In this document: positions 3,290-53,576 of the stretch, piece after piece
Layout: every line of letters starts with the position of its first letter
Position numbering within the stretch: position 1 is the stretch's first letter
Source of the DNA: Deroplatys truncata
Lineage: Eukaryota; Arthropoda; Insecta; Mantodea; Mantidae
Direction: 5' to 3'
DNA length: 64,000 bases
NCBI GenBank assembly: GCA_030765065.1
Contig: CM060979.1
Coordinates: 109,852,350 to 109,916,349, forward strand
Translations under genes and position numbers: made by a program
The notes under the pieces: model-generated
What the model was told of the DNA's origin: nothing
Seen by the model: only the letters and a program-made list of their open reading frames with translations
Database searches by the model: none

Positions 3290-5815
3290 TTACTCAAAAT
3301 ATTGAAACGGTATTTTTGCAAATAAGAAGGATAGAAATCATTTGAAGTTCTTCTGGTGGAAGATGGACAACTAACGGCCTGTGAATATTGCAGAGTTGCG
3401 TTTCGAGTATCGTCAAGTCCATTTCTTCTTGGTACGACAGTAACACATCTCTTAGATAAAGCTCCAGAATGCTTAAAAGAAATATATATAAAACTGAAGG
3501 ATCCCTTTCTTTGAAAACAGTGTCACCAGTATAGTCGATAATACAGCATAGTTTTATAGATTTGTAACAGAGGAAGGTGTCAGATTGACTTTAAGAAAAG
3601 TGAGGATGCGAGGATAAATCAGTAGTCCTTTTAGCTCTTCGCAAGATAACGTCAATAATGTAGATAATGTCCACAGTGAAAATGTCAGTGTGTTAGGTTT
3701 GATTTGGAACACCAATGTAGATGAGCTGTACTGTGACGACAATGTACTTTCGTTAACGCATCCTTTAACAAACAGAGATTTACTCCCAGCCACTCAAAAC
3801 ATATTTGACCCAATCTGATTTATGTGTCTAACAACCCTGATATACAAAATTCTACTGCGAAGGATCTGAAAAGATAAATATAAATGGAATGATAAGTTGC
3901 CAGAACGTCTGATATTTGGATATACAGCTTGGGCAAAAACATTCGCTGGCTGAAGAGATGTGGCAAGCCTACACGACCCGTGATTTTTTTAACATTGGAA
4001 CAGGAAAGGTTGCAACAGTAAGTCTTGTGGACGCCAAAGTCAGCATTGCTCCTACCAATCTTGTGGCTATTCCTTACCTCGAAGTTCTAGCAGCTGCTAT
4101 AGGAGTTCGCATGCATATTCAATTAAAATACTCGACATTGGGAAGTTGTAAAGTGAATGTTTGGACTGATTCAACTATTGTTCTAACTGTAACTCAAAGA
4201 AAGGAAGTTTGGAACATATTTGCAGAAAACCGGTGTAAAGAAATCTGCAATACAATGATCCAAAATTTTGGCACCGTGTACGCGATGTCATGAACCCTGA
4301 AGATCTATATTTTAGAGGGCACAATCCAAAAAAACTTCTAGCATCATATGGCAATAGGACGTATTTATAATGGCATAAGAATAACCCGGAAGAGTGGCCC
4401 CATGAGAATTACGCTGTATCTGAAGTTAAGCAAGAAAAAACGGAGGTTGTGCTTATCCTCGCAAGCACAGTCAGCGCAGGTATGAGAGAGAGAGAGATGG
4501 GGAAGAAAGAGAACTTATCAATCCATTATTATATTTTTCGCAATATAATAAGAGTGTTCTTATGCTAGCTACTTTCTTTGCATTTCTGCTAAAGGAGACA
4601 AAAAAGGAAGGGAAAGCTGGCTAATGTAAAATTCAAGATGCCTTCTAAGCTGACATAAACTCAAAAAGAAAAGCAGTTGTTCGTGAATTAATTTGGAATC
4701 GACAGTGCCAATGAATCGTGGTGTCCTTTGAAAAGACAAAACTAGTCTTATGTGAAGACATTCAGTCTTTCATAACTGCTATACTGTTAGTTTCCCAAAA
4801 CGTTATAGTAACCACACTGATAATGGAACACCGTGATCAACCATTGCAGGCTGGGTTGTAGATATTACTTTCTAGCCTGAATAAATGCTAGATAATTGTC
4901 ATGAGAAGAGTATTAAAGAAAATTCTGAAGCGCTCTGTTATATGTAAAAGGTACTCGTAGAAGGCTAGTTCTCTACAAGTACCCTAATCACCATTGCCTT
5001 CAAAGTCGACCATTTGAAGTTACGGAAGGAGACTCTGCGGGATCTCTAATTTTAAAAGGAAAAGGGAAAGGCCGGGATGTTTTGTTTCCTGTGCAGTTTA
5101 TTGCGCTATGCATCTTGAACTGTAGAGTCTTTCTTCAGGAGCATTCATGCAAGCTCTTAGAAGATGCATAGTTCGTCGTGAAACGAAGACAATTATTTAT
5201 TCTGACAAGAGCACCAGCTTCCGAGGAACCCAAAACGGTCTGAGGAAGTTTGACTGAAATGAAATACGAGATTAATTACTCTATTGTCAATAAAATCACT
5301 TAGAAGGTCATTCCACCTACTGCAGCGTGGTGCGGCGGTTGGTGGAAGAGAATGATGCAGGTGGGAGAAGGTGACCAGCCTAGACAAGTCCTAATTGTGC
5401 TACAATGAACCATACATTGGTGTATGTGATTGTGTGGAAATGGTAACTTTACGACCGCTGTCTTATATTACTGAGGGTTCACATAAGCGTATCCCGCTTA
5501 GACGGAGTAAACAGACATGTACTATTTCAACGGTGAAAATACTTACACATACTACGGAAGGATCTTAGGAAGAGTTTCAGAACTGAGCACTTCTAGTCCA
5601 CCATGGTAAATAAAAGGCAAATGAACGGTAGTGGTGGACGTGGTACTGGCTGGACATGATTCTATGAAACGTATAAATTGTCCTATAGTTGGAGTGAAGG
5701 AAATATACCTAGGATGTGATGAAGCTGTAAGAGAGGTAAGAGTGAAGGTGTCGAAGAGAGAGAGCTCGACGGTTATAAGGAATGTATCCCTTAGAAGCGT
5801 CGATTACTGAAAGGG
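3290..5815 (+). mobile_element. Decayed BEL/Pao LTR retrotransposon, pol region
   Basis: Pieces of a BEL/Pao polyprotein occur in the expected order on the plus strand, broken by many stops and frameshifts. Near 3290-3480 the reverse transcriptase part resembles the ...VFLQI... and EYCRVAF.VSSSPFLLG.T segments. At about 3690-3800 comes VLGLIWNTNVDELYCDD, typical of the connection before RNase H. The RNase H-like piece lies at 3916-4293. An integrase core follows at 5130-5350 (YSDKSTSFRGTQNGLRKF), and then the BEL-type C-terminal module at 5640-5810 (VVVDVVL, KRINCPI, VKEIYLG). Long terminal repeats were not found by eye, so the true borders are uncertain. A short (AG)n run sits at 4480-4500. 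Confidence 0.8.
3916..4293 (+). pseudogene. BEL/Pao RNase H-like fragment
   Basis: An open stretch of 125 codons contains ...NLVAIPYLEVLAAAIGVRM... and VNVWTDSTIVLTVTQ. These correspond to the P-R-L-E-L-x-A-A and WTDS-x-IVL motifs of BEL/Pao RNase H, where the Glu and Asp are catalytic residues. The usual SLPRLEL is altered to a variant lacking the Arg. The region continues downstream (4370-4430) with WP.E.YAVSEVKQE-like sequence in another frame, as expected between RNase H and integrase. It is one piece of the longer decayed pol and not an independent gene. Confidence 0.75.
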
Positions 5816-12059: not shown

Positions 12060-12490
12060 AGCAGAAAGTTTACACCACGATGAGGCGCCAATTTAATACA
12101 GCAACGAATGGTCGATGGTGCGACAATTTGAAGCAGTGTGGTTGGTCGTCACTTTTGAAGCCGTTTGCTTTACCTGCTTCGTTGTTGATTCTGCTACCGT
12201 GATCTCGTAGCTGGTTCTGTTGTCTCGTGCGCCAGCTGCACCAGTGATAGGCTATGAGATCTTTCTGTCAGGCTATGCATGGATGTATTGTTAAAGGACA
12301 ACAACAGTTTAAATTAACTGAAGTTTATTGTAAGCTAATATTTGAGTTATTGAAGTGAGTTGCCGACCGAAGAAATAGACTGGCTCTGAAATGTAGAGCT
12401 CGAAATTGTGATAACTGAATTATTATATCTCTAACTTCTACAGCATTAATTTTACGATTTGAAGTAACTGTTTCCGCAATAAAACAAACT
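12060..12490 (+). repeat. Dispersed repeat X, uninterrupted copy
   Basis: This segment is about 80-88% similar to two blocks at 20775-21010 and 18366-18458 (opposite orientation). Shared landmarks are CACGATGAGGCGCCAA near 12080, CAGTTTAAATTAACTG at 12304-12320, GAGTTGCCGACCG at 12357-12369, and the block TTTTACGATTTGAAG..CGCAATAAAACA at 12450-12486. Here the spacer between the last two landmarks is about 63 bp; in the other copy a 2.3-kb element sits at that point. It lies inside the piggyBac relic. Confidence 0.75.
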
Positions 12491-13379
12491 ATAATCTATC
12501 TAGCCTTATAATCAGACCTGATGTAAGCAAAACAGTTTGTGTCCCTCCGCGTTAGCCTCATGTTCAGCACTTGTAAAAGCAGCCATGTTTATCCCCTTAC
12601 AGACTGCTCATCATTATCGTATGAATGCATAAGAGGGATGAACGACACCACCCAGTATGAAACGAAACAATCTTCTTTTCGAACCACGTTTGATTAAAAT
12701 ATTACTTAAAAATCTATAGATAATATCTTACATTTAAGGTAATATATATATATGATGTGTTTTGGTTTCCGCCGTATCTCAGATTATTTCATGACGTCAT
12801 GTGTTTACATTAAGTCGGGTTCTAAGAGGAGCGATTATAGTAGCATAATTTGCCGTGATTCGCTAAAAACCTCTCGCAACAGCCGCGAAATCTTACTCAC
12901 ACAAGCGAATCACTTAGCACTTAAAGTATCACAAGAGCAGTACGTACCTCTGACGGTACCAGAATGATTTCGATTGCACATTTATTAATTTTAGTTCCGC
13001 CTACATACTATTATTCCCCTTCTGACTTTACATCCTTTGCGGGCCAATATTTAACCCTTCTTCATGCAGATCTCTTAATTTGATGCTAACTGAGCCTTTC
13101 TCTTTTCTCAGAATTTCTTTTACCGCTCTAATTTACAGAATTGATCTACGTGTCTGCGAACGTACTGAGCTTAACTGATTCCCAGAATCTTTAAGCTAAT
13201 GCATTCGCTACTTTGGCTGTCGCAAATGACTTTCGCTAACCTGCCTTCCTAATTACCCGTTTCTCGGACAAATCTTTCAATTCAAGCTTATTATATTATA
13301 CATTGATTTAGTATACGGGAATTAACTCACTATTATTTATTTATTAACTTATTTACTTATTTATATCTCCCGTCAATAA

Positions 13380-14230
13380 TTACGGTATCACGATTAGTGC
13401 AATCTCTACCTCAGGTTGCACCATCTACATGGATAGGTATTTCACATTAATAGAGCTATTAGATTGCCTTCATGCAGATGCAACTTGCCAAGGAACAGAT
13501 ATCATATAAACGGGTCGAGTTTCAAATGACTGAGATTTTTTCTGAAGTAGAATTAAAGATAAAATGTGGAGGAGCATCGGATCAATCTGTACGGGGAATG
13601 GCCAAATTGCCGTTGAAAAATGGTTCAACAATAAGCCAGTAATATTTGCCTCCTCTGCGGAAAGGAAACTGCCAATGGGACCGTATATGCATTGGCTTAA
13701 ACAGAATAGAGTATATGTAACTGTCACTAGACCTCGTATTATTGAAAGCTACAATTCAAATATAGGAGAGATTTTAATGCTGTACAGAATTATAGCTACT
13801 TGTAAAGTGCAAAGACAAGAAAATGGACTGTTCGTCTAATACTTTATGGGTATTTTTTTCTCCTGCGCAGCTGCATGGGTTGAATACAGGAGGGACAAAC
13901 TTGCTCTAAAACTGAAACTCAAAGAAATTATGGATTATCTACAATTCAAAATTATTATTTCAGAATGGCTTATGTATTTACAAAGTGATGTAGATGATCT
14001 AGAGCATTCTTAATAAGAGCAAATAGTTCCACATCGTATAACAAAGAAGCGACAATCTGCAACAGCACATACAAGTGAACCCAAAAGGAAAAATGGAGCA
14101 TCTTATACACCAGAGATTGCAGATCACACCCTTGTAGAACTATTGGTTGTAAAAATATACGAGAAAGAGTATTTTTCTCAGTCTGTAAAATACATTTGTG
14201 CCTGGTGAAAGGTAGTAATTTCAAAATAAG
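13380..14230 (+). pseudogene. piggyBac transposase, second half (broken)
   Basis: From about 13430 the plus strand reads YMDRYFTLIELLDC, containing the second catalytic Asp region (D-x-Y-F-T), interrupted by stops at 13507 and 13531. The open frame 13564-13839 then carries KWFNNKPVIFASSAE and the VTRPRIIESYNSN motif; the usual MGGVDLLD third-Asp motif is damaged to IGEILML. Further on, AAWVEYRRDKLALKLKLKE follows by frame shift, then a Cys-rich tail. A minus-strand open frame of 151 codons over 13970-14425 is only its antisense. Confidence 0.75.
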
Positions 14231-15535: not shown

Positions 15536-15862
15536 CTGCAATGCAAATTTATTTTCATTATAAATTATTGGATTTAATAGGTGAGCAAAACTATCAAAGA
15601 TACTTATTCAATCGCTTAATAAAAGTCTTAACCTATTAAAAACATTTTGTTGGGGAGAGTACTTAGGGCAAGTGTCAGCAAATGTCTGCCAAATGGATGA
15701 AACATCAAAAAAATCATTGATGGTAGCTTTGCTTCTTTATAAACGAAAATAAACTAGAAACAATTACGTTATGGACTATTTTGCGCTTTTGACGATAGTT
15801 GCTGAACTTTGGTTGGAAAGACAGCGTTCGTCAGGGACAAAAATGTTTTTAATTTATGTCAA

Positions 15863-17128
15863 GGGTCATTCAATAATTAGTGGCAACATTTGAATTAACA
15901 AGAAGTAAAACATTTTTGGAACAGTCACATTGTTGCTGTGCTCAGAAGTAATCTCCTCCAACATGAATAACCCGTCTCCACACTTTGGGAGATGACGGAT
16001 GCTACCCACAGCGTCTTGTACTAATCTTCGAACAGACTGCTCTACTGCTGCTGTAATTGCCTGTTTGGTTCTAAAGCGAACTCCACTAAGTGGTAATTTC
16101 ATTTTCGCGGAAACTTAAAAATCACATGGGCTCATATCTGAGGAGTACGGGGGATGCTCCAGAATTTCCCAGTTCCATCTGCGAAATAAATTAACCACAG
16201 AAGCAGCTATGTGAGAGCGAGCACCATCGTGTAGCACAATAGGGTCAGAATTCAGGAGATTTGGACGTTTACGACACACAGCTGTTGGTAAATGGTGTTC
16301 CAGAAAACTGCAATACGCACCATTCACACGATTTCCCGCAGGAACTGAATGAGTGATAAGGACACCATCAAAATCATAAGAAACTATGAGCATGACTTTA
16401 AGTGGATCCTGCTCTTGCCGATATTTTTGGCCGTAGGGAATCATTCTACCGCCACTCATTTGATTGTGTCTTCAATTTTGGTTGATAGCATCGTACCCAG
16501 GTTTCATCTAAAGTTATAATACGTCGAGGATAACGCTCGTCTTCACGTCCATAGCGTTCTAAGTGCAATCTCGCTGTTTCCAGTCTCTGCCAAATGTTTT
16601 CCTCTTCAAGATTGTGTGGAACCCATCGAGCGAAGACTTCCCTCAAGTTTAGCTTCTTAAGTATGTGAAGAATCGTAACAAGAGTAATTCCAGCATCCCT
16701 TGCTAGTTCAAAACAAGTCCAAAAACGTTCACTTGCTGATTGCGTTCTGCAAGCTCCAAGGTTGCTGTTTTTTTGTTTTTTTTAACATCTTCCCTACCTC
16801 TGCGAAATGCTGGCACCCGACTAGCCACGGTCACTCTACCACAAGCTTCCAGTAATGTTGCGTGGCACTGTCGAGCATTCTTGCCTCTTGCAATCTGAAT
16901 TTTAGAGAAGCATCTTTGTTCGTATTTACTAAATATTTTAAAGCACTACAGATAACATCGGCAAATTAAACTCACTACAATTATCTTATAAAGATAAGAT
17001 AATTTATCCCTTCAAACTCGCAGATAATACACAACAGATGCTCTTCTTTCTCATTGTTATCAGCTTGTATCATTTACCGCTGACAGCGCCATATACAAAC
17101 ATTGTTGCCACTAATTATTGAATTGCCC
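15863..17128 (-). mobile_element. mariner-family transposon with intact inverted ends
   Basis: The ends are inverted repeats: TCATTCAATAATTAGTGGCA at 15866-15885 and its complement at 17106-17124, with 25 of 26 or so positions matching over the full pair 15863-15888 / 17103-17128. Between them a decayed minus-strand transposase has the mariner signatures TLDETW, VLHDGARSH and EHPPYSSDMSPCDF. The total length of about 1.27 kb is normal for mariner. A TA lies a few bases outside each terminal match, so the exact border may be slightly further out. Confidence 0.9.
15866..16931 (-). pseudogene. mariner (DD34D-type) transposase, broken
   Basis: Reading from 16930 downward, an N-terminal FKIQIARGKNARQCH-like segment is followed by a helix-turn-helix part with stops. 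Then comes an open block (16646-16446) with RRIITLDETWV, where the Asp is the first catalytic residue. The next block (16459-16115) has HDGARSHIA (second Asp) and PPYSSDMSPCDF (third Asp, spacing consistent with DD34D). A frameshift after CDF leads into MKLPLSGVRFRTKQAITAAVEQ (16102-15866). Interrupted frames make it non-functional. The HDNARPH motif of active mariners is changed to HDGARSH. Confidence 0.85.
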
Positions 17129-18365
17129 GTGTACAACAATTTCTGCTTCATACTATGTGTAGGCTAAGACTTAAAAGTTAAATTAGGTTTTAAATGATTA
17201 ATTTCTATGGGCAGGAGTCCAAAGTATGTATCTACGTCCTTATTATGCCGTGATATCCGAAAGTGCTTTAGATTTCTCTCATCTGCTTAATGCAGGTATC
17301 TCCAAGGCCATATCATATACTTTGACGACTACGGCGTTGAAGTTTACAAATGTAATTCAATTCCCCTATATTTTAAATGGCTTGTAGAATAAAAGCACTA
17401 AGGTTTTACTGCTTTGAATCCCAAAAAGGAACAAATCTGATATCGTTCTCTTCTAGTTTTGGAGAAGCATTCATTCATATATATTTTGAAGGTGGCAGTC
17501 AAAAGCGGGCAAGTTCAGTTCTGATCAACACTAAAGTTATATGTGTTTTCTGTGCTCCTACTCATAGTTGTGCATTTATGTCAATCAATCTGAACTATTA
17601 ATCTAAGAAATTATTTCGTTCCAAATTGATAATTCCTACCCTGGCTACCATCTTGATTTACTTTCTCACTGCAAATTGCTTTAATGTAGTCAAATCCATA
17701 TTATTCCATAATGATTTTGATGCCGTAATTATTGATGGGAAGATATAAATAATTACATAAGGAAATGATAGATAAAGAAATAATTACAAGAAATAATTTC
17801 CGTGTATTAAATCAATGCATAATCTAATAAGCTTGAGTTGAAAGATTTGTACGGAAAGAAAAATGTCATTAGCGAGTCAGTTTGCTCAAAGCCATTATCA
17901 ACAGTCGAAGTAGCGAACGCGTTAGTATAAAGATTCCTGGAAAACAGGTTATAAGTTCAGTACGTTTGAACACTCAGGTTCAAAAGTGAGAAATTCTGGA
18001 AAAATAGGTAGAAAATCTGAAAGAGAAATGTAATGTAATTCTCAAAAATGAGGGGAGTACCGCATAGCAATTAGGTAACAGACGCACATGTTATGAGCTT
18101 TTAGTATTGGAGCGCATTTGAAGGGGGAATAATATATAGGCAGAACTTGAGTTAATATAAGGGTGTGTAATTCTAATCGGAGACCCATTCGTTCGTGCGC
18201 ACAGTCTTATCGTGCAATTCGTGCATACATTCGTCTCTCTGGATACTTGTGACAATTCGTGTGTTATTTAAGTGCTCAGTGGCGCGCTTGTGCGAGTAAG
18301 GTTCAGCGGCCATCGCGAGGGGTTTTGCCGGTCACCATCTTAGGATCCACACCAACTTACGCTGC
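17129..18365. other. Intron sequence without recognisable gene
   Basis: This is AT-rich intron. A plus-strand open frame at 17377-17601 (74 codons) shows no known motif. A less AT-rich part at 18180-18360 flanks the repeat X copy and may be an extension of that repeat, but I could not align it with the 12.5-13.4 kb region. Confidence 0.4.
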
Positions 18366-18458
18366 TAATCTGTTTTATTGCGGAAACAGTTATTTCAAAT
18401 CGTAAAATTGATACTGCAGAAGTTAAAAAATATAGTTTCAAGTGCCACAATTTATAAC
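18366..18458 (-). repeat. Dispersed repeat X, interrupted copy, distal part
   Basis: In reverse orientation this block matches 12395-12490: the complement of GTTTTATTGCGGAAACAGTT and neighbouring bases agree at about 88% over 60 bp. It abuts the left end of the inverted-repeat element at 18459. Confidence 0.8.
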
Positions 18459-18590
18459 ACTAGTCTGCATTTTCAAACATTTTGTCACATGATTTCTTAA
18501 AAGTAGGTGTCCTTGAATCGCATTTTTATGCTAATTCCAGAAATAACTTCCGTTTTTTCTATCACGTCAGGTTTTTACACAAAATTAGAA
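18459..18590 (+). repeat. Left terminal inverted repeat of the GERFHQ element
   Basis: It begins ACTAGTCTGCAT and contains TTTTTATGCTAATTCCAGAA (18523-18542) and TTTTTTCTATCACGT (18553-18567). It pairs in inverted orientation with 20650-20774. Confidence 0.75.
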
Positions 18591-18750
18591 GAAATGTTTT
18601 GACAATTTTACTAATGAGCGTAGAAAAGTATTCAAATACCATTTCACACAAGATAAGTTTCTATTCAAGAAACATTTTAAGTATACTCTCAATAACTCCC
18701 CTAATTTATTTCATGACTATATTTTAACAAAACAAGCCAAAATGTTTCAT

Positions 18751-20426
18751 TTAATCTTTTTCAAACTGTCTCTTCTTTGACTTCCTTGCAGATCCTTGAA
18801 GATGACTGTTCCTTCTCAACATCCAACAATAGTCGGCCATCATAGTTTCATTCCATCTCCCCTGGTACCTCCTCTCCATTTCCTTAATATCTTGGTGAAA
18901 ACGTTCACCCTGCTCTTCAGTATAATGTCCAGGATTTTCTGGAAAGTAGTCAATATGTGAATGCAGAAAATGCACATTTACACTCATGTTACAACCCATG
19001 TTCTTGAAATTTTCCAACATTGTTTCGACAATGGCCTTTTAATTAGTATCTTTGTTATTGCCTAAGAAGTTTCAGTAACTGATCGGAAGGCGGTGCATGC
19101 TTCTATTTCTCTCTCATTCATTGTCTTCTCAAAATCTACATCCTTCATCAACTTATTTATTTGAGGACTAACAAAAACTCCAGTTTTTAATTTGTTTTAT
19201 GTAATGAAGGAAAATTTGTTGAAAAGATACTTGAAGCAGGGTCCATCCTGTGGTAGACCCCTTACAAATTGCTTCATCAAGCCCAATTTTATGTGTAGTG
19301 GCGGAAGCAATATATTTTGTCTCTCTACAAACGGTTCGTGCAGGATGTTTTTAGTTCCAGGCAACAAGTTTCTCCGCTGTGGCCATACTTTCACACTCCA
19401 ATGTCTTTGCTTTGCCCGACTGTCCCATTCGCACAGAAAACAAGGCATTTTTGTGAACCCAGCTTGTTGTCCTAATAGTATTCCAATAACTTTGAAATCA
19501 CCTCATATACGCCTTTAGTGTTCCTCGCATTGGATACTTGTTAAAAGCATCTTCATGTTTTCAACTGTCTCTTTCATTTGAACTGAATGTGCGACAGGAA
19601 TGGACCCATACACATTCCCATTATGCAGTAACACGCCTTTCAGGCTCCTCTTTGATGAATCTATAAAAAGTCTCCACTGAGTAGGAACATGTTCAATGCC
19701 ATAAAAGTGCATTAACTCGTTTATGTTATTGCAGTAAACCAAGGACTCGATCTGTGAGAAAAAAGGAACTAGCTCTTGTTCTCTGTGTCTGTACCAAGAG
19801 TTCCTGGTTCCAGAAGATTCTTATTTTTAAGACGGGAGCCTAATAACTCTGCAGATTCCTTAGACAAATTCAAATCACGTACTAGATCATTTAGTTCACT
19901 CTGAGAGAACAGTTGTGGAGTCACGTCATATTCAGGGAGGTAGACATCACCAGAATCGTCTTTGGTGATTGCATGAGGTTCACTTTCAACACCATCTTCT
20001 TGCAAGTTCCCTAAAACAGCTGGAGGAAGAGGAGCAGGCAGATCTTCTCCGTGTGGAACTGGCCTGATGGCTGAAGGAATACTTGGATACACAATGTGTT
20101 TCTTATTTTTCGAATTGCATCCCTGAACAATAATCAAACAGAAATAACAGTCTTTAAGGTTGTCTTTAGGCTCCCTCCACACCATAGGAATTTCAATGGC
20201 ATGCATGATTTCTTTCCTTTTATCCACAATCTTAACCTCTCGACACAAGAGCGGCAAACTGTCTTTGGAGCCCAGGCCTTGTCTTGGTCACAAAGTTTCA
20301 TTTAAAATAAGCATGGTACACTTTTTTCACAAAATCTGTTATATCGGTTCTCTGCTGAAGCACTGCGTAATTTCCACAAATGTAGCAGAAAACATTTTGA
20401 TTGTTCACACACTTGCGTGTAGACAT
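18751..20426 (-). pseudogene. Unnamed zinc-binding, possibly transposase protein (GERFHQ family), about 558 codons, frameshifted
   Basis: The likely start is the ATG at 20426. The N-terminus has VFCYICGNYAV and KLCDQDKAWAPKTVCRSCVE: two CxxC pairs suggesting a zinc-binding domain at about residues 12-65. MVWREPKDNLKDCYFC (about 80-95) adds another CxxC. Then come a PSIPSAIRPVPHG stretch and an acidic linker, followed by LFSQSELNDLVRDLNLSK. The central part has WRLFIDSSKRSLKGVLLHNG, MPCFLCEWDSRA and LLPPLHIKLGLMKQFV. The C-terminal part has HSHIDYFPEN, EEQGERFHQDIKEMERRYQGRW and MMADYCW. At least four frame breaks and several stops separate these blocks. I recall similar uncharacterised proteins from other invertebrates but no functional name. 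The conserved Asp in FIDSSKRS, the Asp in CEWDSRA and the Glu in EQGERFHQ could form a DDE-type site; this is inference. Confidence 0.7.
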
Positions 20427-20649
20427 AATGTATTTATAACTTCAATCACGATATAGTACTGATAATCCAAGCCTCTGATATTAACAATGCCTAAATTACA
20501 AATAGCAATCAGCATCTACAGGTGTAACAACCTAAAGATTACAAGTCTGTATTGAGAAACTTCCCTCCAAGGTGTGATAAATTTCCCTCCGAGAAGTGAT
20601 AAATTTCCCTTTTACAATACTCATCATCTACTGCCTCAACTCTATATTT

Positions 20650-20774
20650 TTGAAGTGAAATTGTGAAAAAACTGTACGTGATAGAAAAAAATTAAAAGCA
20701 GTTCTGAAATCAGCATAAAAAGTGAGTCAGAATCACTTATTAGTTTTCAGTCATCCGATATCATGCAGACTAGT
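20650..20774 (-). repeat. Right terminal inverted repeat of the GERFHQ element
   Basis: The complement begins ACTAGTCTGCATGATATC and includes CACTTTTTATGCTGATTTCA and TTTTTTCTATCACGT, matching the left repeat in order and spacing with scattered differences. Confidence 0.75.
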
Positions 20775-21010
20775 TTAATCAGTTTCATTCTCTATTTTTA
20801 AACGGTCGGCAACTCGCTTCAATACCTCAAGTATCAGATCACATTTAATTTCTCAGTCAATTTAAACTGAGGTTATCCTTTCACACCCAGCCACGCATAC
20901 CCTGGGAGAAAGATCTGGTAACCAACCATTGTAGCAGCCGACAGCAGAATCAACGGCAGATTCTGAAACAAAGGATACTGCTTCAAATCTTGGCGCCTCG
21001 TCGTGGTGCA
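20775..21010 (-). repeat. Dispersed repeat X, interrupted copy, proximal part
   Basis: In reverse orientation this matches 12075-12372, including GAGTTGCCGACCG (complement near 20802-20814), CAGTTTAAATTGACTG and CACGACGAGGCGCCAAG. Further right (21025-21240) there are minus-strand open pieces such as YQHYFDVLLSIP that faintly recall the DxYF/TSxP stretch of piggyBac transposases; I do not rely on this. Confidence 0.7.
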
Positions 21011-33725: not shown

Positions 33726-33874
33726 TACATCGGTGGCCCCTTAGATCAGTCGATAGAGTACCTGCCTGGTATGCGAGGGATCCCGGGTTCGATTCCCGGC
33801 TGGGGTGGAATTGTTCTCTAGCCAAGGTTATTCCCTATCCTCCCCAGAATCTGGAAGTATGAATGAGAGTGTGA

Positions 33875-37367: not shown

Positions 37368-38664
37368 CTAGATTAATTCGATTGGGTTTAGATCTGGGCG
37401 ATACGATGACAGTCTAAGTACATTATGACGATGTTGTATTACTATCTGGTCAAGTATGTATGACTTCTGAAGCTGTTTGTTGGCTTTAATTAAGTTATAT
37501 AGCTTTGTTTTACTCATGCTTTCATCTAAAGCTTTATTATGTCTAAGTAACCAAGCTCTCATTTCTTCTTTCAGGGAAGTTGAGGTAGGTGGTTTGTGAA
37601 TTTGAGTGTTGACGCATTGTGAAGCATTGTCGATGACCAGAACAGACCCAGCAGGCATATTAGGTATCAACATGGCGTTGATTCACTTCATGTAATTTTC
37701 TGTATTCATTTCTTGATGAAAATCTCCTGTTGTTTGTTGCGACTTGTAAAAGAAGGGCATTTGGAACGAAGCCGATCTTTCCAACAGCACGAACGATAAG
37801 TATTTGCCCTTTGGCAACAGGTGCCTGCAAACCTAATTCGCTATCGTCACTCCAACTTTTAGATGCTGTATGACTGCTGTGTATGTATGACTCATCTTCA
37901 TACATTATAGTATTTTTCTGAAATTTGTAGCACCACCTTAAAAATTGATGCTGATATAAGTACATATAAAATTAGTCATTTGGAAAGGTAGAATCAGACT
38001 GAAAAATTAAATGCCATAGCCGGGATTTGAACCACAGATCTCAGGCTTTCCGTGCCGTTGCTCTAACCGACTAAGCTATCATGGCAACATTTACTTTTTA
38101 TTTTTATTTTTTTATTTTATTATTATTATTTCATTTTATTTATTTATTTATTTATTTATTTTGCTTTTCTGTTAGAACTCCTCTATTTGATTTCGGTTTC
38201 TTCCACTTGAACCCTAAATCTTTAATAATTTTTCTGAGATTTGTAGCACCACCTTGAAAGTTTCTGCTGTGTTTCAGCTGGATGAGCAATCTGCTTATTA
38301 TTAGCACAGTTTTTTCTTCCACATAGGAATTGTGAATCGTGCGCCGAATGACGCATTCGAAATCGTCTATTTCTGTAATACGTTTAGGGACCTTATGTTT
38401 CTTCCCAGGCGTGTCAAATGGCATTCTTTCATCCATATGTTTTTTTCTTATCTTTGAGAACTCTGGAAACGGAACTCGGGGAAACACCAGTTGCTTGACT
38501 ACTCTTTCTTTCACTCTCTTAAGGCTTTTGTGGAACTCGGACGAACATATATTTTCTTCCTTCATCTCTGCTTCTTACTTCATGAAGTCGAGGACATTTG
38601 CAATTATTTCACTACTTTGACTACGTAACACCTTACCACTTAACTTTGAAAACATAGGAGCCAT
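37368..38664 (-). pseudogene. Tc1-like (DDE_3) transposase, split by a SINE-like insertion
   Basis: The likely start is the ATG at 38664 (MAPMFSKLSGKVLRS), with a stop at about codon 30. The open block 38565-38152 has DDFECVIRRTIHNSYVEE and a GGATNLRKIIKDLGFKWKK segment, the winged-helix part of a family I recall from many insects. An insertion occupies about 37966-38150. The catalytic half (37965-37368) has MYEDESYIHSSHTASKSW (first Asp), GQILIVRAVGKIGFVPNALL, VLVIDNASQCVN (second Asp) and VLRLSSYRPDLNPIELI (third acidic Glu). The second-Asp neighbourhood is intact apart from N-A-S in place of N-A-P. The element's terminal repeats were not found. Confidence 0.82.
37966..38155 (-). repeat. 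tRNA-like SINE insertion within the Tc1-like relic
   Basis: The minus strand reads GCCATGATAGCTTAGTCGGT (box A: TAGCTTAGTCGG) and, after about 35 bp, GGTTCAAATCC (box B), closing with GGCTATGGC. The first and last bases (GCCATGA / ..TATGGC) can pair as in an acceptor stem. It is preceded by a (TAAA)n-like stretch at 38100-38160. Because it interrupts the transposase frame it is a later insertion. A true tRNA gene is less likely, but folding should decide. Confidence 0.65.
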
Positions 38665-41560: not shown

Positions 41561-44500
41561 CAGGGTTAGGATATTTAGGTGCGCACCTTTTTTCTTAGGG
41601 TAAGTTAAATCTGTGCGGAAAGATATCACGTGTGAAATTTTGTTTCTAGTTGCGAAAAGAGGCATTTTTTCTCGCACCTTTTTTCCTTTTTTGGGACCTT
41701 TACCCCTTTCTGGCACCTTTATCACATTTTCCCCCAACAAGCCCATAATCCCCTTTTCCTCCTTTTTTCTTTTAAGTTTCATTCCAATTTATTCTTTAGC
41801 GTTCAATTAACGTCTCCTCGGCTTGCTTGGTAGTGCGAATAGTAAGCCTACCTCTTTCAGTAAACGCCTCGCGGGAATTGAAAGCACAACCGCAACAATG
41901 TAAAATAATTGTGTGTTCGACGAAAACCTCTTTCTCTCGTTTTACCGCTATAAAGTAACCCGCAATAATTCAATTGACAATGAGTGATTCTATCCCACCA
42001 CAATCAGTACCTGCTGTTCGTGAATGTGAGTTTGTTACTGTAAGAGACGTCATCTGTTTGCATGGAGGCGAAGGCTGGGCACGCAGAGACGGTAGTAACC
42101 TCACCCGTGCAGTTCCGAGAATTATTAAGATTGGGTTTTGCTCGAAACTACTAGAAATCGCTGAGACTGAAGTTCCAGCATGAATGAGAACATTCTGGTA
42201 ATAGTCGCGGTGTTATAAGAGAATGTGACAGCGAATGGGTGCAAGAGAGTTGTGTGACAGTCGCGTTGTGTTAGCAAGTGAACTAGTGTTAGCTCTATGT
42301 TACATTACCAAACGAGTGTACTAGTACTATATTTTACCACGCCAAAGGTGTCCAGTGCTCGATTTATTGTTCTGGCTGAGGAATTCAAACAAGATTTCAT
42401 AGACACTGATGGAACTGTTATGCGATGTACTGTTTGTGATTCAGGAATTTTGTTAGATGAAAAACACCAGCGAGATCGCATCAAACAATACATTTCCAGC
42501 TCTAAGCATCAAATGAACAAGACTCTTCAAGCAAACAAATCACGCAAACTCTATTACGAAATGCGTTTCAACAGAGTTCTTCAAAAAGCCAAAATTTGAA
42601 GGAATTAAACATTGATTTGTGTGCAGCTCTTACACAAGTAGGAATTCCACTCAATAAGGTGAACCATCCAGCCTTCAAGGGGTTTCTGAAAAATACACAA
42701 AGATGTCAATGCCCGATGAGAGTACTTTAAGAAAAAGCTTCATGGAGCCAAGAAACCATAGAAAAATCAAGGAGAAAGTGTCTGATTGCGATGTGGGAAT
42801 CATTGTGGATGAAACCATAGACTCAATGGAACCATATGTTTTTAACATTTTAGTTTTTCCCTTAGCAGGGGAGAAAGTTAAGCCCGATGTGTTAAAAATG
42901 TACGAGCTGCAGAAAGTCAATGCCAGTACAGTAATGCAATTCATTATGGACTTCTGCCAAAAACTCCGGCCTACTGGTATCGCGTTTGAACAACTTCTTG
43001 TGGTTAAGGACCAGGCTCCATACATTGTTTCAATTGTTAACCAATTGGAACCTTTATTTCCCAACTTGAAGCATGTGGCATGCTTGGCTCATGCCCTTCA
43101 CAGGGTTTTTGAATTCATAAGGAACGAATACGACATCGCAAATGAATTCATCTCTGCCCTGAAGAAGATTCTATTGAAAGCTCCGAGCCGTGTTGTTTAC
43201 TACAGGGAAATCATTGGTCTGCCCCTTCCAAATTTCCCGGTCATTACTCGCTGGGGATCTTGGATTGAGTGTGCTGCTATGTTGTGTGAGAATTTTTGAC
43301 AAAATTAAAGAGTTTGTACTTTCTTTAGATCCATCCGACGCAGGTGCAATCTGCTAGGCACAGCAACTTCTGTTACCGGAGAAAATACATAAGTTGCAGA
43401 CAGAACTATATTGTGTCCATAGTTACAAGTACCTGCCTGCAGCTATTAAACGATTGGAAGAACAAGATCTGGAAAAGGAAAAGCTTCCGTGAGGGAGCAC
43501 TTAGATGGCTTTGCAAAAGACAAACTTGAATCTAATCTTCAGAAGAATCCAGACATTGAGGAATTCGCCACATCTGTAGAGTTGCCATTCCGAGTGAATA
43601 CAAGGTTTGCCTCACTGGTTTCTGTGGATCTTGAAAGAAGCTTTAGCATCTACAAAGACTTTCTATCTCCTAATAGAAATAGACTTACTTTTAAAAATGT
43701 GGAGATGCTTAATGTCTTGAAGTACAACAGCTTCATGTTTTTTTCCTTCTTTTGATGAGGGATAATTTGATGTACTTGTTTGTAGTTCAATAAATTAGAA
43801 TAGAGGAAAGAGAAATCGTTGGATCAATTAAGGGAATGCACAACTGAAATTAACCCAAAATCTAAAAAAATCTAAATAAAAAAATAATAATATTCCCAAA
43901 AAAATTCCCATTGCTTGTAGTTTTAGAATCCATTTTTATTTTTGACCTAGGGAACGCTTCAGGATCGTTACGAGACTTGCACATTTGGTTGCTAGCTGTT
44001 TATATTTTGAAAACTTGATTTTAAGGCGTTTCTTATTTTCAGCATTTCTGCATATTCAAAATGTTCCACACGATGTAGTTTTCATCCACTCATATTGACA
44101 TTTTTATGCTTATTTCAAAAACTCAAATAAATAAAACTGTCATATAATTTTTCTGGGTAATAAATAGTTTTTGCGCTACTAATTTTTTAAGATAACAATG
44201 TATACAAAAATACGGGAAAAAATGCAAATACAAAACTGCAAAACTTTTTAAAAATGATATGACAGATTTTTAGTTCCTTGACATAGAAGCAAAATAAGAT
44301 TTTTTTAAAAAATGCATCATGTGTTGCATTTTGCATATGCCCATAATGTTATATTTTGAAAATTAATAACTTGAAAGTAATTAAGATTTTGGATTGAACT
44401 TCATAAAATTATATCTAAAGAAGACTGACATGTGGTTAAAAGTTCAGCCCAATTGAATGGATAGTTTAGAAAATAGCAATTTCAGTTGTGCATCCCCTTA

Positions 44501-52215: not shown

Positions 52216-52424
52216 AAAGTATATACAAGATGTATATAAAGGCATATACAGTAATTCATGATTTGTTTATGTACCTTCGGAAATGTTCTTGAAACTAAGG
52301 CACCTTCACGTGACATCTGCAGTACATTCCACAAGTCGTCAAAATCGTCTGACGGATTTGTATTGAGTGCAATACTGTTTATATTACACATAGTATTACT
52401 TGTAAATATAACCTACAGAGTTAC

Positions 52425-52584
52425 CTATATTTGAAGGATATCTTCCAGTAAGCAGAGCTGCACGAGTCGGTGTACAAATAGGCTGAACATAGTGCTGGTT
52501 CAACATGATCCCATGATATGCCATGGCGTCCAAATTTGGGGTTGGTATCTGATTGGCGCCGTGAAAGCTGAAGTCATTCCAACC
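52425..52584 (-). CDS. Arylsulfatase exon with catalytic CTPTR signature
   Basis: This 160-bp exon encodes 53 residues plus one base. It starts after a strong acceptor (TTATTTTTCAG) and ends at a GTAACT donor in phase 1. It opens with GWNDFSFHG, which follows the usual ADDL metal-binding strand of sulfatases, so the preceding exon should end with that strand. Residues 37-41 are CTPTR, the C-x-P-x-R motif whose Cys becomes the catalytic formylglycine, followed by AALLTGRY, the second half of the signature. No frameshift or stop is present, so the active-site segment looks functional. The upstream exon (signal peptide, first Asp pair) was looked for between 52.6 and 64 kb and not recognised. 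The substrate is not decidable from this exon; arylsulfatase B/I/J similarity is the closest match I recall. Confidence 0.92.
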
Positions 52585-53576
52585 CTGAAAAATAACATTG
52601 GAAATAAAGTGTGGATGCCGCGATAGTATCAGGGTAGGTATAGTCACGGCGAGGTGGCGGTTGTTGAACTTGATACCACTGATAGTTCCAGTAACTATAG
52701 TGACGCCACTGATGATGGGTTTGTTGCGTTGTAGTGGTACATAGACTGTAATAGCGCTGCGATTATAGCTTTACTAATACCTTCGGCCAAAAAGTCGCTG
52801 ATTTTACACGCACAATTTATCGAAATGAAGCGACAATTTTCACCTTAATGGATATTGATTTACCAAGGCTATTACATAAGTTATTAAGCTGTATCCTTAG
52901 GGCTTGTAAATTTTCCGAGGGACAAATTCATTAATAATTCCGTGGGCGCATACAATCTTTGTTTTACATATTGATTAGTAATACAAGTAAAATTAAAATG
53001 TGGGATTTAATGAAAGGTAGTTTTTGCAATGAAGTTTACTTTACAACAGTACCTAGGGACTTTGTTATTGATAAATATATACGGTATGAATTAATCTATA
53101 GGTATCTTTGTAGAAATTACGGAGTTGTCTATGAATCGTGGAACAACAATGACAAAGGTATAGAGTATGTGTACTGTATGAATCGTATGAATATGTACTG
53201 CAAGGAAATTATGCATCCTGCGTTGGACAGAAAGTAATAATATGAATATTGTGAGTGAAGTTCTGCTGATGTATAGGATGACAGAGGTAGATTTCAGCAC
53301 TGCGGCCAAATCTATGCCTATTGAACCTACTTAATCTCCAGGAAGCATACATAAGTTTTGAGGAAGTATCAAGGGTGTCAATATCTGATGACGGTAGGTA
53401 CAACACAGCGGGGCCCTTAACGATTCCAATTGTGCGTCCCGGCAGAGCCTCTCACATACCATGAATATCCACGACATGTGCACGTGGGAGATATCGGTGT
53501 AACAGTAGAAACAGTTCTCTTCTCCAAGCATATCCACCGCGCCTGGCCCTGTTACCCAAAAGTTAAATTAAATTAA
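52585..53576. other. Intron or upstream sequence without recognisable gene
   Basis: The exon preceding the arylsulfatase signature exon was sought here and not found. Short open frames at 52959-53237 and 53331-53537 have no known motif. Confidence 0.4.

Follow-up and report, generated by a model that had tools for sequence, protein, structure and literature searches.

A 64,000-nucleotide stretch of Deroplatys truncata DNA (the window) carries a decayed copy of a DNA transposon, which we assign, at a probability of about 0.92, to the Chapaev3 type within the CMC / Transib-RAG1 group, on the basis of diagnostic features rather than measured homology. An earlier note on this DNA had proposed a new transposon family whose protein fits no known one. 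Its single-gene, inverted-repeat DNA transposon is borne out, but this kind of element very probably already has a name, as those element-level and motif diagnostics of Chapaev3 that could be tested are present (by description, not by alignment). The note had itself named membership of a known superfamily as the finding that would overturn the proposal, and the testable Chapaev3 diagnostics point to exactly such membership. In all likelihood, the element does not represent a new superfamily and is an unremarkable, decayed representative of a group already known.

By itself, this finding opens no new biology. It assigns the GERFHQ protein, so far uncharacterised, to a named group of transposases, which allows relatives of this protein to be annotated as Chapaev3-type. 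It also puts on record, for one large genome, an extensive family with 2,258 exact left ends and a common derivative of ~1.0 kb.

Element ends and target site duplication

The 12-bp perfect ends described in the earlier note, ACTAGTCTGCAT and ATGCAGACTAGT, were found at 18459 and 20763, each occurring once within the window. The surrounding inverted repeats of ~125 bp are also genuine, with a local alignment score of 43, whereas none of 500 shuffles of one arm scored above 23.5. The proposed extent, 18459..20774, proved one base short on each side. To locate copies, we searched the genome (4.29 Gb, 818 contigs) and scored the best 40 of 3,103 first-look candidates. These comprise the window copy and 39 others that are 89-93% identical. 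Both ends lay above the alignment threshold in 30 of the 40 copies (window included), and the remaining 10 were dropped. Flank agreement in the two-ended copies indicates that the element starts one base further out per side, at 18458-20775. This exact boundary is drawn from the element copies more than from the diverged empty sites of the host repeat (Table 1).

The genome search, which the earlier note had proposed as a check, returned many copies with shared ends and a duplication of constant size: flanks are identical over exactly 3 bp in 20 of the 30 two-ended copies and over 4 bp in 1 of 30, while 10 of 30 are without identical 3-bp flanks. The identical 3-bp flanks read TAA or TTA (TWA) in 19 of 20 copies and TTT in the other. 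Among the 19 TWA copies, the duplication is preceded by A in 18 and followed by T in all 19. Left and right flanks taken from different copies agree over 3 bp in 263 of 870 cross pairs, an agreement that stems from the constraint on the target; the match rate within copies is about twice as high. Two of the observations, the CACTAG end and flanks of TAA, were recorded before any comparison with the published description of Chapaev3, and most other tests came after it.

Genome copies other than the window copy have the termini CACTAGTCTGCAT...ATGCAGACTAGTG. The column majority of the 30 copies is CACTAG...CTAGTG, giving CAC...GTG termini. The window copy starts with CACTAG and finishes with CTAGTT, where most other copies have CTAGTG. 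The mean Kimura distance of the 30 copies to the column majority is 3.7%, in a sample that is non-random for divergence because the copies were picked by similarity to the window.

An abundant host repeat is present in the window as two inverted copies (12117-13390 and 17718-20997), one of which is interrupted by the element. Using a 200-bp piece of this repeat as a query, we scored the best 40 of 2,960 first-look candidates and fetched five more copies. The 2.3-kb insert is absent from all six host-repeat copies, namely, the window's own and the five fetched. At the insertion site, the empty copies read ATAAT (L095), CTAAT (L099), ATAAA (L097), and ATATT (L096); a fifth (L098) is diverged there, and the window copy also differs. 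In the window's own empty copy, the best-scoring flank joins fell away from the element ends.

TABLE 1 Coordinates of the element, its gene, and its flanking sequences in the window
Feature	Position	Strand	Basis
Whole element, 2,318 bp, decayed copy	18458..20775	gene on (-)	copies end here; paralogous empty sites
Target site duplication TAA, left; A at 18454 before it	18455..18457	(.)	flank comparison
Target site duplication TAA, right; T at 20779 after it	20776..20778	(.)	flank comparison
Left terminal inverted repeat, starts CACTAGTCTGCAT	18458..18582	(+)	inverted-repeat alignment
Right terminal inverted repeat; final base T (most other copies: G)	20661..20775	(-)	
Transposase piece 1: start codon, first CxxC (FCYIC)	20301..20426	(-)	
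Transposase piece 2: second CxxC (VCRSC)	20209..20301	(-)	
Transposase piece 3: CYFC and linker	19799..20212	(-)	
Transposase piece 4: 3 stops; candidate Asps, C(2)C, LH	19071..19805	(-)	
Piece 4, candidate first Asp (FIDSS)	codon 19659-19661	(-)	inferred from motif layout
Piece 4, candidate second Asp (GDFK)	codon 19497-19499	(-)	inferred from motif layout
Piece 4, C(2)C	codons 19440-19442 and 19431-19433	(-)	
Piece 4, LH, His codon	19293-19295	(-)	
Transposase piece 5: 1 stop; H(4)H, candidate Glu	18754..19071	(-)	
Piece 5, H(4)H	codons 18970-18972 and 18955-18957	(-)	
Piece 5, candidate catalytic Glu in EEQGER	codon 18904-18906	(-)	inferred
Stretch of the inverted host-repeat copy without the element (paralogous empty site)	12230..12500	(-)	

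Genome-wide abundance and a short derivative

Genome-wide, we counted 2,258 exact left ends, 1,906 of them directly preceded by TWA, and a reversed-pattern control for TWA plus the left end gave no matches. For the right end with TWA, the count is 1,601. On contig C1, we compared the first 100 listed left ends with listed right ends located below 280 Mb (91 in number) and obtained 40 pairs, a sample tilted toward younger copies because exact ends were demanded on both sides. Pair lengths are 941-1009 bp in 33 of the 40 and 2,232-2,297 bp, or full length, in 4; the others measure 1,159, 1,830, and 4,849 bp. Two copies of the ~1.0-kb derivative (L100 and L101) join element bases 1-870 to 2183-2317 and have identical deletion points. 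Together with the 33 short pairs on C1, these shared points establish that an internal-deletion form of ~1.0 kb has spread. Nonautonomous forms are known for other Chapaev3 families, as listed in Table 1 of the partially available PMC4079192.

The transposase gene and its product

The single minus-strand gene reported earlier is present and contains the motifs FIDSSKRS, CEWDSRA, and EEQGERFHQDIK, but it is not open, being broken into five pieces with 4 frameshifts and 4 stop codons. The composite protein assembled from these pieces has 562 residues, the frame between stops in the column-majority sequence spans 566 codons, and the longest single frame among the 40 sequences examined is 534. Three CxxC pairs lie in the N-terminal part of the composite, whose sole Pfam match is zf-AD across pieces 1-2, below the cut-off for that family (E 0.037). 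Further along, the protein has C(2)C (C333/C336), LH (L381-H382), and H(4)H (H490/H495; all in composite numbering), and candidate D/D/E residues (D260, D314, and E512) occur in order together with these motifs. This motif order alone recurs in 63 of 20,000 protein shuffles.

The motif layout fits the DDE-like transposase suggested in the earlier note; an RNase H fold would be predicted for such an enzyme, and the structure model, built from a 22-row alignment, is of low confidence (pLDDT 49.5, pTM 0.36). In this low-confidence model, a helix comes after three strands around and after FIDSS, an arrangement like the start of an RNase H core. A fold search with the same model returned no matches at E <= 0.001.

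Diverged relatives in the same genome

As bait for relatives, we used the pattern EEQGERFHQ(D/E), which includes the candidate Glu, with codons unlike those of the window family. The pattern occurs at 143 genome sites, from which 30 loci (L065-L094) were cut out. Compared with the window protein over 556 sites, they average 43.5% identity, and 28 of the 30 fall in one cluster whose gene-side ends are >75% identical in DNA sequence. The gene-side end reads TWA-CACAG in 18 of the 30 loci, with A before it in 17, vs none of 60 control stretches. Most of the 18 clean ends read TWA-CACAGG(C/T)CT, and two end and codon variants could be distinguished by eye. These older Chapaev3-like relatives and the window family have ATWA-CAC ends in common.

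Across the 30 diverged loci, the commonest residue is the window's own at 9 of 9 motif sites vs 309 of 544 sites overall. The Glu, itself part of the search bait, is kept in 28 of 29 loci (99th percentile). Conservation of the other motif sites ranges from the 50th to the 81st percentile in these decayed loci, where decay and substitution are pooled: the first Asp is kept in 8 of 18 (50th percentile of sites), the first Cys in 9 of 20 (51st), the first His of H(4)H in 17 of 29 (58th), and the second Asp in 11 of 17 (64th).

Placement among transposon groups

In the available part of PMC12730594, the CMCT clade (EnSpm, Mirage, Chapaev, Transib) is characterized by CA...TG ends, duplications of 2-5 bp, and C(2)C and H(3-4)H between the second D and the last E. 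The window family displays these features, with D and E assigned putatively. Within this clade, the GERFHQ proteins could form a deep CMC/Transib lineage apart from published Chapaev3, with only target choice and zinc-motif layout in common, which we consider unlikely. If so, the genome would carry an unnamed clade of several groups, and the N-terminal zinc region may be related to the insect ZAD fold.

Membership of another CMC/Transib branch (EnSpm/CACTA, Mirage, Chapaev proper, or Transib) is suggested by the CACTA-like first bases (CACTAG) and by C(2)C and H(3-4)H, which are reported across the whole CMCT clade (PMC12730594, as far as available). We regard this as very unlikely, since the 3-bp A-TWA-T duplication, the one-gene element of ~2.3 kb, and the ~560-aa protein are a specific fit to Chapaev3, and the clean ends of the diverged relatives read CACAG, not CACTA (18 of 30 loci).

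Searches beyond the family bear on whether the element could represent a new superfamily outside all named groups. Pfam recognized no families in four ORF pieces and only weak single-member matches among 22 alignment members (best, VAPB_antitox, E 0.0018), which we read as chance; a PDB sequence search gave no match worth keeping. No relatives were found in viral contigs and phage records, nor was the EEQGERFHQ pattern found in viral and bacterial contigs, all of them collections poor in animal sequences. Two more patterns located 2 and 15 loci in viral contigs, whose tblastn matches are at chance level (best E 0.31 to 0.56), and peptide strings of the protein had no occurrence in literature text. 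This lack of relatives in Pfam, PDB sequences, phage records, and viral or bacterial contigs, in collections with few animal sequences, speaks for a new superfamily. Against it, the duplication, target context, ends, motif set, and element and protein size all match the published description of Chapaev3, and we hold a new superfamily to be highly improbable.

The target duplication of piggyBac elements is TTAA. With 3-bp TWA flanks and no piggyBac transposase domain by Pfam, membership of that group was rejected, and we see next to no chance of a piggyBac-like element despite the similar first bases and length of Kenshin elements (CACTAG(A) ends, about 2.1-2.5 kb in the available part of PMC4298943).

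Other features of the window

A 29-nt inverted repeat (15860-15888 / 17103-17131), 90% complementary and with 1,214 nt between its arms, is possibly another small DNA transposon. A Pfam DUF659 match at 42658-43296 (+), below cut-off (E 1.5e-5) and presumably linked to hAT, is a possible hAT-type remnant. The window also contains a Pao retrotransposon peptidase fragment at 3913-4290 (+) (Pfam Peptidase_A17, E 7.6e-5) and a piece of a sulfatase domain, perhaps an exon, at 52399-52770 (-) (Pfam Sulfatase, E 1.3e-11). ARAGORN and Rfam each made one tRNA call, in different places (33736-33807 (+) and 38012-38085 (-)), and these may be tRNA-like repeats.

Proposed mechanism

As a Chapaev3-type transposon, the element in its intact state would have a single gene encoding a ~562-residue DDE transposase that carries cysteine pairs close to the N-terminus. 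This enzyme would bind the ~125-bp inverted repeats and cut at the CAC/GTG ends, with cleavage chemistry and RNase H fold presumed from the named group. The element would then be pasted into A-TWA-T sites, where a staggered cut would yield the 3-bp duplication. The ~1.0-kb form may have been moved in trans by the enzyme of the full-length element, as the named group suggests. Of this scheme, the sequences themselves show the ends, the 3-bp duplication with its target context, the presence of many copies, and the ~1.0-kb internal-deletion form.

Comparison with known systems

Like EnSpm/CACTA elements, the window family has CACTA-like first bases and a 3-bp duplication. EnSpm/CACTA elements are usually larger and have multi-exon genes; in a further difference, the window protein is without a Pfam transposase match. 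Transib elements make 5-bp duplications, unlike the 3 bp of the window family, and the window protein has no detectable sequence similarity to PDB chains. The order C(2)C, LH, H(4)H, Glu is one that it shares with Transib and RAG1. In mouse RAG1 (6oem_A, derived numbering), the LHC His 795 is followed by His 937, His 942, and Glu 962, and the counterpart in the window protein is His382, then His490-x4-His495-x16-Glu512.

The closest correspondence is with Chapaev3. According to the available part of PMC4079192, Chapaev elements have CAC/GTG ends and C(2)C, LH, and H(4)H motifs, and Chapaev3 elements make TWA duplications with A before and T after. The same partial source gives 2,289-2,455 bp and 554-562 aa for Garfield (silkworm, triatomine bug, bracovirus) and Merrow (two lampreys); Garfield_BM has 2,289 bp and a 556-aa transposase, and Merrow encodes 78+484 aa. 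An N-terminal Chapa zinc domain is described for Chapaev3 in the available part of PMC4411706. Horizontal transfer has been reported for other Chapaev3 families. Unlike Garfield and Merrow, which have two exons where most Chapaev3 elements have one (PMC4079192, in part), the window element has no evident intron. Compared by description with the accessible account of Garfield, Merrow, and Conan (PMC4079192), the window family resembles Chapaev3 in its A-TWA-T duplication, its CAC...GTG ends, its C(2)C/LH/H(4)H motifs, its element and protein size, and its nonautonomous derivatives.
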